This document shows positions 1,936 through 7,099 of a DNA stretch of 7,964 nucleotides, in pieces (position 1 is the first letter of the stretch; every line of letters begins with the position of its first letter). The notes under the pieces were generated by a model. It was not told the DNA's origin. It ran no database searches and saw only the letters and a program-made list of their open reading frames with translations. Origin of the DNA: Desulfuromonas sp. SDB (GTDB lineage: Bacteria; SDB-A); contig LKUE01000266.1 of NCBI GenBank assembly GCA_001412365.1, forward strand, positions 1 through 7,964. Direction: 5' to 3'. Both the position numbers and the translations under genes were made by a program.

Positions 1936-3093
1936 TTAAAATTTTCTATTATAAAAAAGCCGGGGCGGTTTGATTATTTTTCCTGATCTTTTATCTACTG
2001 AAGATAAACTGAATTTATGTGAGCTCATCCCCATATAGATGAAGTAAATTTCTCTCTGATAGGTGGTAAAATAAAGATAATTGCTTTCTGAAAATTTAGG
2101 TTTTTCAACAATTTTACTGATTGACTTTTTCCAAAGTTCTTCACTCTGATTACTTACTCTGGAGATGTATATATCCTTGATTTTGGGATTTAAATTAGCT
2201 GAATGGGCAATAACAACACTGGAGGGAGTTCTAGTCAGATATGGCATGGAGCAATTTCCCCGGTTCAACAGCTTGGGATTTAAGAAGGAATCATATAACT
2301 TCTTGGGTTTATCACTGGAAAAATTTATTTTGATATGCAAAAAATATCTCTTGCTTCCCGGTTCAGGGATGAAATCAATATCATATTTATTTGAGCCGGA
2401 GAAATAGGTGTCCGGTTCGGAATTGGACAATGCATATTTATCAAGCGTCACCTTAGGTAAATCACCTAAAGACAAATGTTTAACCCTATCTTCAGGGGAA
2501 ATATCAAATTTAATTTTTTTTGCCTTAACTGTTTCCGGATCAAGCAAATAGGCATAACCTTCATTATCATAAATTACAATAGTCTGTTCAATATGGCTGT
2601 ACACACAAAGCCGTTCATTAAAATCTTTCAATTGGGGATTTTTCTTGATAATCTGTTTTTTTGTGCATAACCTCTTGCCTTTTTTATTATCCACCACAAT
2701 TAGATCTTGATTATCAGTAACTAGAAATAGATAATGGGGATTCATTCCAAATAGTTTAATATATCCACCCATCATTCCCGAACCAAACCGGGATAATTTA
2801 ACTTCATACACAACTCTTTGATATTTAAGATTAATTTTCTTTACTCTAAAATCATGCTGTAAGGACATACCGCTTTTAGAAGTGTGGGTTATCTCATAGT
2901 CCAGAATAAGAAGCAGATAGGTAATTCTATTTTCAGATAGAATATAACCGTCAATTATTTTACCCCGGGCAAAAACGGATTTTAAAACTTCATACAAGAT
3001 AAAAGCAGACGCAAAACCGATCAACATTTTCACTGAAAAAGATAAATTAAAGAAAAATTCCTTAATATTTTGCATGAATTCTAAAATAATCAT
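1936..3093 (-). CDS. Membrane-anchored propeller-like protein of unknown family
   Basis: I do not recognise this 385-residue protein. Residues about 16-41 form one hydrophobic segment followed by basic residues (R43, K45), consistent with an N-terminal signal anchor; topology is not clear from the charges. The rest is soluble and lysine-rich, with repeated strand-turn-strand elements. Three resemble PQQ-type propeller blades: LIVVDNKKGKRL (131-142), YLLDPETVKAKKI (182-194) and LSSVDKRSGKII (363-374). A pattern at about 291-322 ending in an 'SxVSNQSEELWKKSI'-like strand fits 'value in one state, then Trp-containing blade end'. A PA2928-like or quinoprotein-like propeller is possible, but that is a guess from shape. 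Met1 gives a full leader before the anchor; Met7 is an alternative, and neither has a good Shine-Dalgarno. The gene starts 19 bases after the cyclase gene stop, which implies co-transcription and perhaps a sensor or anchor role for that protein. Confidence 0.9.
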   Translation of the reverse strand: MIILEFMQNIKEFFFNLSFSVKMLIGFASAFILYEVLKSVFARGKIIDGYILSENRITYLLLILDYEITHTSKSGMSLQHDFRVKKINLKYQRVVYEVKLSRFGSGMMGGYIKLFGMNPHYLFLVTDNQDLIVVDNKKGKRLCTKKQIIKKNPQLKDFNERLCVYSHIEQTIVIYDNEGYAYLLDPETVKAKKIKFDISPEDRVKHLSLGDLPKVTLDKYALSNSEPDTYFSGSNKYDIDFIPEPGSKRYFLHIKINFSSDKPKKLYDSFLNPKLLNRGNCSMPYLTRTPSSVVIAHSANLNPKIKDIYISRVSNQSEELWKKSISKIVEKPKFSESNYLYFTTYQREIYFIYMGMSSHKFSLSSVDKRSGKIIKPPRLFYNRKF

Positions 3094-3112: not shown

Positions 3113-6100
3113 CTAACTGGCGTTAAGTTTCGTTGATTTTATTCTTTTAACAATCTTCCGGGATTGATTTAAATACTTTTTAGACTGAACTTTATCCCTC
3201 TTTGAATTTAGATATTCAGCATATTGCTTTAGTAAATTTGCATATTCAATATTGTCCTTTTCTCTTTTCATTTCTTTAAGAGAATGTTGCAAATAATTTT
3301 CAGGTTCAGTTCCTTTCCCAGTTATTTTTGAGATTTCCTTTGCCTGCTTAATTGTTGGATCAATATTTGCAAAACAAATACCAATGGAATAATAATAAGT
3401 GTAGCCTTTTGTTTTCAATTCTTTTTCCATTAACAGGGAATTTTTATTGGTTTGAAGGGATTTAAGATATTCTCCATTTAAAGCATAAGTAAGACCCATT
3501 TTTGATGAAATTTCAACTAATCCGATTTTCAAATTAATATTTTCAGCAATACTAAATGCTTTTTTATAATTTTCAATGGCCAGATGATAATCCTCTTTCC
3601 TTCGATAGAGATCACCAATGTACATTGCAGCATAAACTGAACTTCTTTGATCGTTTAATTCTTCACTTATCTTTTTTTTCTGGTTCAGACAATCCAAGGC
3701 AAATTCATAATTGCCTATCTCCATATATATTGTGCCCAAGTTCCCCACTGCTACGCTTAAACCTCTTTGGTCACCTAAATCCAAGGATATTTTTTTCTTG
3801 GTAATAAAACATTCAAATGCACTGCTGATATCCCCCCTATCCACATAAACTGCCCCCATATTTCCCACTGCTGAACTAAGCACTCTTTTATAGCCAATTT
3901 GTTCACAGATCTGTTTAGTTTTTGCAAAGTATTCCATCGCTTTTTCTACTTGGTTACGGTGAAATAATACTGAGCCTAAATTTAAATAAGCTACACTTAA
4001 TCCGAATTTATCATCATTCTTAATGTTGATATTAATTTGTCTCCGGTAACAATTTACTGCTTGATCAAATTCTCCCCTATTCCAGTATATAAGTCCAATA
4101 TTACCCAATGCTATGGAAACAAACTCAGAATTCCCATCATTTTCATGCCTGTTGATTATTTCTCTATAAATATTCATAGCTTCATCATATTTATTCTGTC
4201 TAAAATAAATCTGACCAATATTTGTTTTAAAATTATCCATTTTTACATCAAATTTGTTGATTTTGGCTTGATTTAATCCACTAATTGCTATTTTCAGCGC
4301 ATCTTCCACCTTTTCTTGATAAAGATAAATTTGACTCAACAGGTTTTTTGAATCGAGAATAATCTTCAACTCCAATTCATCAGGTTGTTCAATAAGATAA
4401 ATAAGATCCCTAATTGAACTTTCCCAACTGCCTTGAACAAAATTAATATATGCTCTCAAGTACAATGTTTTATTTTTAATTTTCTTTCCAGGCTTAAGTT
4501 TTAATATTTTTTCACAACAATCTAATGCTTCTAAATTCTTATATTGTTGTTTGTAATGATTCCCAGCACTAGAATAATAGAAAATTGATTTTTGCCTGTT
4601 TCCGGCTAAATAGAAATGAGAGGCAATATCGTAATGATAACTTACTTCTTTGATATATAGTTTCTCCAGACTATCCCCAACCAAACCATGTAATTTAGAT
4701 AATCTAGCTTTCAACTGCATATCATAAACCACATCCCGGTATAGAGAACTGGCAAAGGAATAATGTGACTTATCCGCCTTGATTAATATACCATTTTCAG
4801 TTATTGAATTGACCATATCGGTAAAATTTTCAAATTCAATTTGATTGTTAACTTTAACTAAACTGTAGAGAATATTCAGATCAAAGTCCATGCCCAGAAC
4901 ACTGCATAATTGAATAACTTCTTTTTGTTTTTTGGGTAATTTATCAATTCTGGAAATTATTATCGAAGTTATACTGTCCGGAATCTCCACATCTATTTTA
5001 TTTACTTCATTTACTTGATTATCAAAAATTTCATTATCCTGAAAATATTGGCAAAGCTGTTTTATATAAAATGGATTTCCTTGAGATTTTTTAAAAACAT
5101 AACTAACTAGGGATTCAGGCACATCTTGATTATACATCTGCCTTATGATTTCAGAGCTGTGTTGATAATCAAACCTGTTTAAATTAATCTGTTTGACTTT
5201 CCAACTAGCACTATGATTTATTTCAGATAATTCAATATTTTCAGTAAATCTTCCTGCAGTTATTATTAATACCGGATGATTTTCCAGGCTTCTTAGAAAT
5301 ATTTCCAGAAATTTCTTTGTTTCATCATCAATCCAGTGATAATCATCTATAAACAGGACTACTGGTTTAACTGAACTGAGAACAACTAAAAATTCCTTAA
5401 GAGCAAAAAGAGAATTTTCATATTTTTGCTTTGGTTCAAGTTTATCGTAAACAGTTCCATTTAAATAATCAGCAAACAAAATAAAGCCAATTAACGGTTT
5501 AATTCTAATAAAATTTTGAAAGTAATCCCGATTTAAATCCTGTTTGTCCTTGATAAGGTCTATGCTTTGATTATATCTTTCCTCAAATTTCTGTTTCTTT
5601 GATATTTCATCGGATAATCCCCATTGATTGAAAAAATTTTCCAAAAAGTAAATTATTGGATTTAGTGATTTTCTCAGGATTGAATCACACTTCCAATAGA
5701 ATATTTGAAATTTTTGTTGATAGTCTTCCAGCACATAATTTATCAAGGAAGTTTTCCCAATTCCCATCTCTCCCTGAATATTTACTACACCCTGGAATTT
5801 TCCCTTTTCCAAATCATTAAGACAGTCCTTAAGAATTTTCTTTTCATCATTGCGGTCACAAATTTTTTTGACATCCCAGATGTGATATTGAGGACTGTTT
5901 TTGGCAATTAATTTATAAACAGGCAAGGGACTGGATTTGCCCTTAAAAAGGATATTATCAATTAACTGAATTTTATATCTGTCTGAATATTCCTGTTCTA
6001 TATTCTGAGAAACCCATATCTCTCCAAACTGGGCTTTTTCCATAAACCGGGAAGAGAGATTAACTACTTCTCCAAGAGCAGTATATTGGCATCTTATATC

Positions 6101-7099
6101 ATCTCCAATAAAACCCGAATAAGCTAAACCACGGTTAATGCCCATTTTCACATTCTGATTAATTATGTTTAATCCAAAATCCAATGCTCTTTGCACATTA
6201 TTTTCATGGGATAAGGGAGCGCCAAAGATAATCAAAAAAGTTGCTCCTTTATCTCCAAAATTTAATGAAGAGAAATATCCTCCATAATTTATTACTTCTT
6301 TTAGAATACTACGGATAAAATCGTTTAATAGCTGATGGGAATTATAATTTTTAAAGGACACCAAAACCGAAGTTATATCTCTAAACTCACCCCGGTAAGG
6401 TAAATCAAACACATCATCCGAAACAAAATTTCTGTAGAGATCTGTATCTATAGAAATATCATAAGTTAAATTAGAAAAATTCTTATTTTCATTATCCCCA
6501 GAATTAATTTCTTTTAAAATAAAATAATTCTGATCAAGTCTTTCAACAATGATATCTTCATGATTAACTTGCTGGATAACACTCCGGTCAATTATTATCT
6601 CAGTTTTATCGGAAATCCTCTTGGATTTTGAACATCTGTCAATGGCTTTACCTCTAAAATAATAAGTTTTGATATTTTTATATCCAATAGTCCCCCAGTT
6701 AACCAAACCATGAGAAATTCCGATTTTTAGAGATATGTCAAAGTTGCCAAATTCTGTATACTGAATTCTGTTTTCAATAATATGATTGCTAATCTGATGG
6801 GCACAAGTCAAAGCCATAAGTGTATTGGCTTTTTCACTGGGAAATACAGCAGTTAAACCATCTCCAACAAAACCTGAAATAAATCCGCTATTGATATAAA
6901 TTATGGCAGTGATTGGTTTAAATACCTTTTCCAGTATGACTGATAATGTTTCCGCTCCATGCCTTTTTTCTTTCAACAGTTTTTCAGTAAGAGGAGTGAA
7001 GCCTTTTATATCAATGAATATTGTGGTTGCAGTAAACTGCCCTTGAAATTTACCTTGTCTATCTTTCAGCAGGATAAATTTGGGAACAAGATTTTTCAT
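3113..7099 (-). CDS. Tandem class III cyclase / STAND ATPase / TPR protein, soluble adenylyl cyclase-like architecture
   Basis: Predicted cytoplasmic signalling protein of 1,328 residues; no signal peptide or membrane segment is seen. Residues about 20-170 are cyclase domain 1, with metal-binding aspartates D30 (FIDIKGFT) and D80 (GFVGDG). Residues about 240-395 are cyclase domain 2, where the first aspartate is S248 but D283, N347 and R351 (LGEVVNLSSR) are present. Residues about 415-800 are an AAA_16/STAND ATPase: Walker A GEMGIGKTS (443-451), Walker B VLFIDDYHWID (581-591), a sensor-like R617 and a GNPF motif (674-677). Residues about 835-1240 are TPRs, the last seven or so (994-1233) in exact 40-residue register. 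Domain order and residue split resemble ADCY10: domain 1 binds metal and domain 2 supplies Asn/Arg. The usual adenine-reading lysine is G76 in domain 1 and appears to be Ser near 278 in domain 2, so cyclase activity or nucleotide choice is uncertain. The start is supported by the family-typical VPKFIL motif at residues 5-10, although no clear Shine-Dalgarno precedes it. Confidence 0.95.
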   Translation of the reverse strand: MKNLVPKFILLKDRQGKFQGQFTATTIFIDIKGFTPLTEKLLKEKRHGAETLSVILEKVFKPITAIIYINSGFISGFVGDGLTAVFPSEKANTLMALTCAHQISNHIIENRIQYTEFGNFDISLKIGISHGLVNWGTIGYKNIKTYYFRGKAIDRCSKSKRISDKTEIIIDRSVIQQVNHEDIIVERLDQNYFILKEINSGDNENKNFSNLTYDISIDTDLYRNFVSDDVFDLPYRGEFRDITSVLVSFKNYNSHQLLNDFIRSILKEVINYGGYFSSLNFGDKGATFLIIFGAPLSHENNVQRALDFGLNIINQNVKMGINRGLAYSGFIGDDIRCQYTALGEVVNLSSRFMEKAQFGEIWVSQNIEQEYSDRYKIQLIDNILFKGKSSPLPVYKLIAKNSPQYHIWDVKKICDRNDEKKILKDCLNDLEKGKFQGVVNIQGEMGIGKTSLINYVLEDYQQKFQIFYWKCDSILRKSLNPIIYFLENFFNQWGLSDEISKKQKFEERYNQSIDLIKDKQDLNRDYFQNFIRIKPLIGFILFADYLNGTVYDKLEPKQKYENSLFALKEFLVVLSSVKPVVLFIDDYHWIDDETKKFLEIFLRSLENHPVLIITAGRFTENIELSEINHSASWKVKQINLNRFDYQHSSEIIRQMYNQDVPESLVSYVFKKSQGNPFYIKQLCQYFQDNEIFDNQVNEVNKIDVEIPDSITSIIISRIDKLPKKQKEVIQLCSVLGMDFDLNILYSLVKVNNQIEFENFTDMVNSITENGILIKADKSHYSFASSLYRDVVYDMQLKARLSKLHGLVGDSLEKLYIKEVSYHYDIASHFYLAGNRQKSIFYYSSAGNHYKQQYKNLEALDCCEKILKLKPGKKIKNKTLYLRAYINFVQGSWESSIRDLIYLIEQPDELELKIILDSKNLLSQIYLYQEKVEDALKIAISGLNQAKINKFDVKMDNFKTNIGQIYFRQNKYDEAMNIYREIINRHENDGNSEFVSIALGNIGLIYWNRGEFDQAVNCYRRQININIKNDDKFGLSVAYLNLGSVLFHRNQVEKAMEYFAKTKQICEQIGYKRVLSSAVGNMGAVYVDRGDISSAFECFITKKKISLDLGDQRGLSVAVGNLGTIYMEIGNYEFALDCLNQKKKISEELNDQRSSVYAAMYIGDLYRRKEDYHLAIENYKKAFSIAENINLKIGLVEISSKMGLTYALNGEYLKSLQTNKNSLLMEKELKTKGYTYYYSIGICFANIDPTIKQAKEISKITGKGTEPENYLQHSLKEMKREKDNIEYANLLKQYAEYLNSKRDKVQSKKYLNQSRKIVKRIKSTKLNAS
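3401..4120 (-). repeat. TPR array with 120-base period in the cyclase gene
   Basis: Residues 994-1233 split into six full 40-residue units starting at 994, 1034, 1074, 1114, 1154 and 1194. Each has the core 'xxNLGxIYxxxGxYxxAxxxYxxxxxI'. A more diverged unit starts near 957. DNA similarity persists between adjacent units: around 3731-3760 and 3851-3880 the same codons recur exactly 120 bases apart, suggesting fairly recent internal duplication or conversion. Helical solenoids of this type bind proteins or peptides. Confidence 0.85.

Follow-up and report, generated by a model that had tools for sequence, protein, structure and literature searches.

A tandem cyclase-STAND-TPR protein from Desulfuromonas sp. 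SDB and its relation to human soluble adenylyl cyclase

The DNA analysed here, a stretch of 7,964 nt that we refer to as the window, encodes on its minus strand a 1328-aa protein (3113..7099) that combines two tandem cyclase domains with a STAND ATPase and a TPR tail. We put a probability of about two in three on this protein being a ligand-gated tandem cyclase, in which the TPR arm would serve as sensor, the STAND module as switch and the C1/C2 pair as output, the product being a cyclic nucleotide, probably cAMP. Computation gave the architecture, the fold, the division of active-site residues and how well it is conserved, along with cNMP-binding proteins encoded in the genome.

Domain layout and the predicted composite site

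The gene was delimited as an ATG-start open reading frame with the aid of Pfam and its orthologues. Pfam resolves two Guanylate_cyc stretches, PF00211 matching both cyclase halves, followed by an AAA_16 NTPase and a long TPR tail. The first cyclase domain, C1 (residues 18-198, 6506..7048; all features of the protein are on the minus strand), holds the metal-binding aspartates D30 (codon 7012-7010) and D80 (6862-6860), and has D154 (6640-6638) and K158 (6628-6626) at the catalytic Asn and Arg positions. The second, C2 (residues 234-400, 5900..6400), has S248 (6358-6356) at the first metal position and S278 at the adenine-Lys position, and carries T340 together with N347 (6061-6059) and R351 (6049-6047) in the motif LGEVVNLSSR. 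D30 and D80 are thus confined to C1, and N347 and R351 to C2; a codon check bore out all seven residues (D30, D80, D154, K158, S248, N347 and R351) from which the first-pass annotation had proposed that the two domains supply complementary halves of one active site.

Among solved structures, human soluble adenylyl cyclase (sAC, ADCY10) is the best sequence match, with C1 aligning to C1 and C2 to C2 in order (phmmer, E 8e-19). The alignment with ADCY10 that had been proposed as a check gives the same register by phmmer and in an 88-row alignment, the latter pairing sAC D47 with D30, D99 with D80, T405 with T340, N412 with N347 and R416 with R351, and placing D154 at D173 and K158 at L177. Two points are absent from the earlier annotation. 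In the 88-row alignment S278 falls at sAC K334, the adenine-selecting lysine, and a conserved D283-K284-G285 motif (6245..6253) is the counterpart of D339-K340-G341 in the hairpin with which sAC covers its dead site. K284 of this motif was considered as the adenine lysine and ruled out, since the sAC chain numbering aligns K334 with S278.

An AF2 model of residues 1-400, built from 65 natural homologues (mean pLDDT 95.2, pTM 0.92), superposes on human sAC with AMPCPP (4clk) over 387/400 residues in one superposition (Z 42.0, 2.4 Å), and Foldseek agrees. The next structural matches are C1/C2 pairs of membrane adenylyl cyclases (Z 30-37), and single-domain bacterial cyclases cover only one half of the model (Z ~20). 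In the model, C1 and C2 of one chain pack into an sAC-like composite arrangement. Because both domains superpose on sAC together, D30, D80, N347 and R351 should share one cleft, that of sAC D47, D99, N412 and R416, their joint placement resting on this superposition. The structure prediction suggested by the first-pass annotation therefore came out in its favour, and the model supports a pseudo-heterodimer formed within one chain around one composite site.

C2 is followed by the STAND/AAA_16 NTPase (residues 413-700, 5000..5863; PF13191), with Walker A GEMGIGKT (5773-5750), Walker B LFIDDY (5359-5342) and a GNPF motif, and then by a TPR superhelix (3380..4627), the presumed sensor arm, which was assigned by Pfam and structure model matches. 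The model of residues 401-1328 (pLDDT 87.9) matches Apaf-1 (Z 22.1, 404 aa) and MalT (Z 21.4, 375 aa), as well as plant NB-ARC proteins and the STAND-TPR protein 6mfv. PF13191, the Walker motifs, a STAND core and superhelical repeats, which together mark a STAND NTPase with a TPR arm, were all found, and both Walker motifs are intact in all orthologues. The likeness to MalT and Apaf-1 lies in the NTPase-helical core (residues 401-900, Z 21-22), whereas their outputs are DNA-binding or CARD domains and that of the 1328-aa protein is a cyclase. For full-length sAC, too, a STAND domain and its P-loop have been predicted (PMC12802110).

It is the STAND ATPase fold and the TPR arm of residues 401-1328 that lead us to favour a ligand-gated cyclase, and by analogy with MalT and Apaf-1 the tail likely gates the cyclase pair. 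From these features we infer catalysis, product identity, ligand gating and STAND switching as follows. The TPR arm would bind a ligand (a protein, peptide or metabolite), upon which the STAND module would exchange ADP for ATP and rearrange. This rearrangement would free C1 and C2 to produce a cyclic nucleotide (probably cAMP) for the cNMP-binding proteins of the cell to read.

A widespread bacterial family of sAC type

From 84,980 species genomes, scanned with another alignment after one of 14 paralogues had proved too diverse as a seed, we retrieved 195 relatives, of which the best 80 loci (L096-L175) were analysed. These best 80 span about twelve phylum names, including Chloroflexota, Bacteroidota, Cloacimonadota, Myxococcota, Gemmatimonadota, Delongbacteria and WOR-3, and the matched segments are open in 80/80. 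D30 and D80 are each present in 80/80, R351 in 79/80 and N347 in 78/80, while Asp at position 248 occurs in 0/80; D283, K284 and G285 are kept in 79/80, 78/80 and 76/80, respectively. Judged from the alignment, this degree of conservation is far beyond chance. The split is also mostly retained in the paralogues, and its near-universality among the 80 relatives makes it a family trait older than the 1328-aa protein. As these sequences read, the C1/C2 split characterises a whole sAC-type family widespread in bacteria, not the 1328-aa protein alone.

Bacterial sAC orthologues are reportedly among the subjects treated by Roelofs and van Haastert in 2002. Bacterial sAC has also been mentioned elsewhere (PMC6660944), and the 1328-aa protein is an added case of a known and widespread kind of enzyme. 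The contrast that the first-pass annotation drew with homodimers in bacteria is broadly fair, but overlooks how widespread the tandem type is among them. CyaC of Spirulina (1wc0) and other single-domain class III cyclases have the same domain fold (Z ~20 with C2), but they are homodimers with two equal sites and one cyclase domain per chain (PMC4506562). The 80 bacterial tandem-cyclase STAND-TPR proteins share the residue split and have a similar length, mostly 1230-1420 aa; most have K or R at position 278 and Asn at 347, whereas the orthogroup of the window protein is drifting at both.

Human sAC (4clk, 4clf, 4oya) has in common with the 1328-aa protein the C1-C2 order, the residue split, the fold and the relative placement of the domains, as well as the DKG motif of the capped second site and a downstream STAND-type P-loop NTPase (PMC12802110). 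They differ in sequence, at ~22% identity, and K334 and V167 of sAC are S278 and F148 in the 1328-aa protein. A common account derives the single C1/C2 site of sAC from a fusion on the route to the enzyme of mammals, and treats those of bacteria as homodimers (PMC4506562). In our domain tree, human C1 groups with the bacterial C1s (99/96) and human C2 with the bacterial C2s (97/89), apart from single-domain cyclases. This grouping suggests that one duplication preceded the human/bacterial split, although a topology that makes human C1 and C2 each other's sister survives the AU test (p-AU 0.099). A divergent tandem pair with long branches (L025 of the genome studied here, G000, and L093 of G001) joins human sAC both when whole pairs are placed in a tree and among the C1s of the single-domain tree, and L025 has a Lys at the position of sAC K95.

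The degenerate site of sAC binds bicarbonate via K95 and R176, the latter forming an inhibitory salt bridge with D99 (PMC12250328), while the hairpin Met337-Gly341 blocks the second nucleotide site (PMC4506562). In the 1328-aa protein these two positions read G76 and S157, on which grounds bicarbonate sensing in the manner of the animal and cyanobacterial enzymes was rejected; among the best 80 of the 195 relatives, K95 has a counterpart in 1/80 and R176 in 0/80. A search of the genome for beta-carbonic anhydrase gave none, which by itself proves nothing on bicarbonate sensing. The earlier suggestion that the degenerate site is free to serve as a regulatory pocket is thus without support in the sAC sense, the bicarbonate residues being absent and the occluding hairpin conserved. 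In the same best 80, D154 (sAC D173) is common (59/80) and the K158 position varies freely, and I137 and F148 are nearly invariant with W135 in 67/80, so something is conserved in that part of C1. Since the C1/C2 asymmetry is near-universal in a family that spans about a dozen phyla and is without the bicarbonate residues, it probably arose earlier than control by bicarbonate through K95/R176.

Drift in the orthogroup and competence of the site

The 1328-aa protein has three orthologues of 1328-1331 aa, to which it is 36-39% identical over the full length. The four form one clade with a support of 100, and a Delongbacteria protein is sister to this orthogroup within the bacterial tandem-cyclase family. 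Orthology rests on the tree, because the EF-G-like gene found near the orthologue in three other genomes is not a neighbour in the window. The cyclase domains are the best-conserved parts among the orthologues (43-48% identity versus 34-36% for the NTPase), and D30, D80 and R351 are intact throughout the orthogroup. At the base- and ribose-reading positions the picture is one of substitution: position 278 is Ser in 4/4 members, so that the sAC-type adenine Lys is absent while the Thr (T340) is present in the 1328-aa protein, and N347 is replaced by I, I and T in the three orthologues, all of which have S in place of T340. By comparison, K or R occupies position 278 in 39/57 members of the phylum and in 45/80 of the wider relatives (best 80 of 195).

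Across these best 80 of the 195 relatives, the base-reading pair varies, being K/R-T in most and otherwise E-A (16/80), L-T, M-T or S-T/S, and the K/T adenine pair is therefore not defining for the sAC type. The Glu-Ala pair is seen in L117, L123, L135, L138, L141 and other Bacteroidota loci. This combination is listed for guanylyl cyclases (PMC4215837), and the Saprospiraceae/Lewinella branch that carries it may, by its residues, consist of guanylyl cyclases. With such natural variation (K/R-T, E-A, S-T) one could test how the substrate is chosen and in what order catalysis decays.

For the first-pass claim of a pseudo-heterodimer with one competent site, the composite site holds, backed by the superposition and by the split in the 80 relatives and most paralogues. 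The word competent was over-called, given S278 across the orthogroup and the orthologues' substitutions at N347 and T340. Non-conservation in close homologues had been offered as grounds for rejecting the claim, and it is found in part, with N347 lost in three orthologues while D30, D80 and R351 hold. Absence of the Asn is no proof of inactivity, because the active mycobacterial cyclase Ma1120 has Ala in its place and loses activity once Asn is introduced (PMC4215837). As far as the residues tell, the competence of the site in the 1328-aa protein is uncertain.

An unlikely but serious alternative to a gated enzyme is a pseudo-cyclase receptor, whose site, on binding metal-nucleotide, would regulate the STAND module but no longer cyclise efficiently. 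The invariance of the metal and phosphate contacts D30, D80 and R351 in the orthogroup fits such a role, as do the Ser in place of the adenine Lys in 4/4 members, the loss of N347 in 3/4 and the Ser at T340 in 3/4, and three tandem members of the same phylum (L082, L084, L085) lack D30 and R351 outright. It sits poorly with the retention of N347 and T340 in the window protein and with the cyclase domains being the best-conserved region, and Asn loss is not always inactivating, as Ma1120 with its Ala illustrates (PMC4215837). We consider it improbable that S278/T340 no longer reads adenine and that the enzyme makes another cyclic nucleotide or is promiscuous. The variable base-reading pair in the family, including the guanylyl cyclase-like E-A of 16/80 (Bacteroidota), leaves room for this, but such substitutions lower activity more often than they switch it (PMC4215837), and PADLOC models of the pyrimidine cyclase PycC match C1 only, weakly, at 46 bits.

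Least probable of all is that C1 and C2 of separate chains pair in an intermolecular homodimer, or that the domains work alone as two independent sites. STAND proteins such as MalT and Apaf-1 oligomerise in the active state, and many bacterial class III enzymes are homodimers, both of which would suit such an arrangement; against it, the full residue set is in neither domain and the modelled chain has its own C1 and C2 arranged as in sAC across 387 residues. Relative to these alternatives we retain the ligand-gated tandem cyclase, and add, with the odds clearly against it, a tentative reading for the orthogroup, in which a tandem cyclase is becoming a nucleotide-sensing or base-switched regulator and loses base and ribose contacts stepwise while its STAND-TPR part stays constrained. 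The order of loss would then be Ser278 first and Asn347 later in one genus, with metal and phosphate contacts kept. If true, the orthogroup would offer a natural enzyme-to-sensor series in a family of sAC type that numbers about fifteen to nineteen members in each genome.

A Pycsar system was suggested by PycC of clade A (6yii), whose function is cUMP/cCMP anti-phage signalling (PMC11224242). This bacterial chain superposes on both model halves (348 residues, Z 26.4), but it lacks a STAND-TPR tail in the solved chain and is a lower structural and sequence match than sAC. With PADLOC PycC models matching C1 only (<=46 bits), this reading was set aside; within the 7,964-nt window there is no gene for a cyclic-nucleotide-binding effector.

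Genome complement and neighbouring genes

The genome (3.14 Mb, 98.7% complete) encodes 15 tandem cyclases with both domains readable, that of the window included, and additionally three cut by contig ends, one strongly degenerate and seven single-domain cyclases. Three other genomes of the phylum each have a similar set of tandem cyclases. Among the tandem members, L082, L084 and L085 (G003, G001 and G002) and L094 (G000) lack D30 and R351, and from their sequences are likely pseudo-cyclases kept in parallel across genomes. Five proteins have a cNMP-binding domain, each with a PRSA-type (RSA-type) phosphate-cassette motif: a CRP-like regulator, an MscS-type channel with a cNMP domain, two small proteins and one GGDEF fusion. 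Their presence makes cAMP signalling in the cell plausible; a PF02112 search found no class II cAMP phosphodiesterase in the genome. The GGDEF fusion (L042, G000:C172) is a possible link from cAMP to c-di-GMP. About fifteen to nineteen cyclases, with STAND gating inferred, in a small candidate-phylum genome suggest a large receptor set that feeds few cNMP readers.

Upstream of the cyclase gene, a TPR tail reading frame cut by the contig end (7161..7964, minus strand) has its best match in the C-terminus of the tandem cyclase L078 (42% over 251 aa). It is, by this match, probably the tail of a second tandem-cyclase paralogue arranged head to tail, and the window thus probably begins inside that paralogue. 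Downstream lies a gene for a 385-aa protein of unknown function (1936-3093, minus strand), single-copy in the genome, with a weak match to the PA2928 family (41.9 bits versus a cut-off of 70). The product of the gene at 64-1884 on the plus strand is probably secreted; it contains BNR/Asp-box-like repeats and has a sorting tail for type IX secretion (TIGR04183, 24.8 bits versus a cut-off of 23). Between these two convergent genes, a GC-rich inverted repeat (gggggca...tgccccc) followed by T-rich sequence (1898-1926) looks like a shared terminator.
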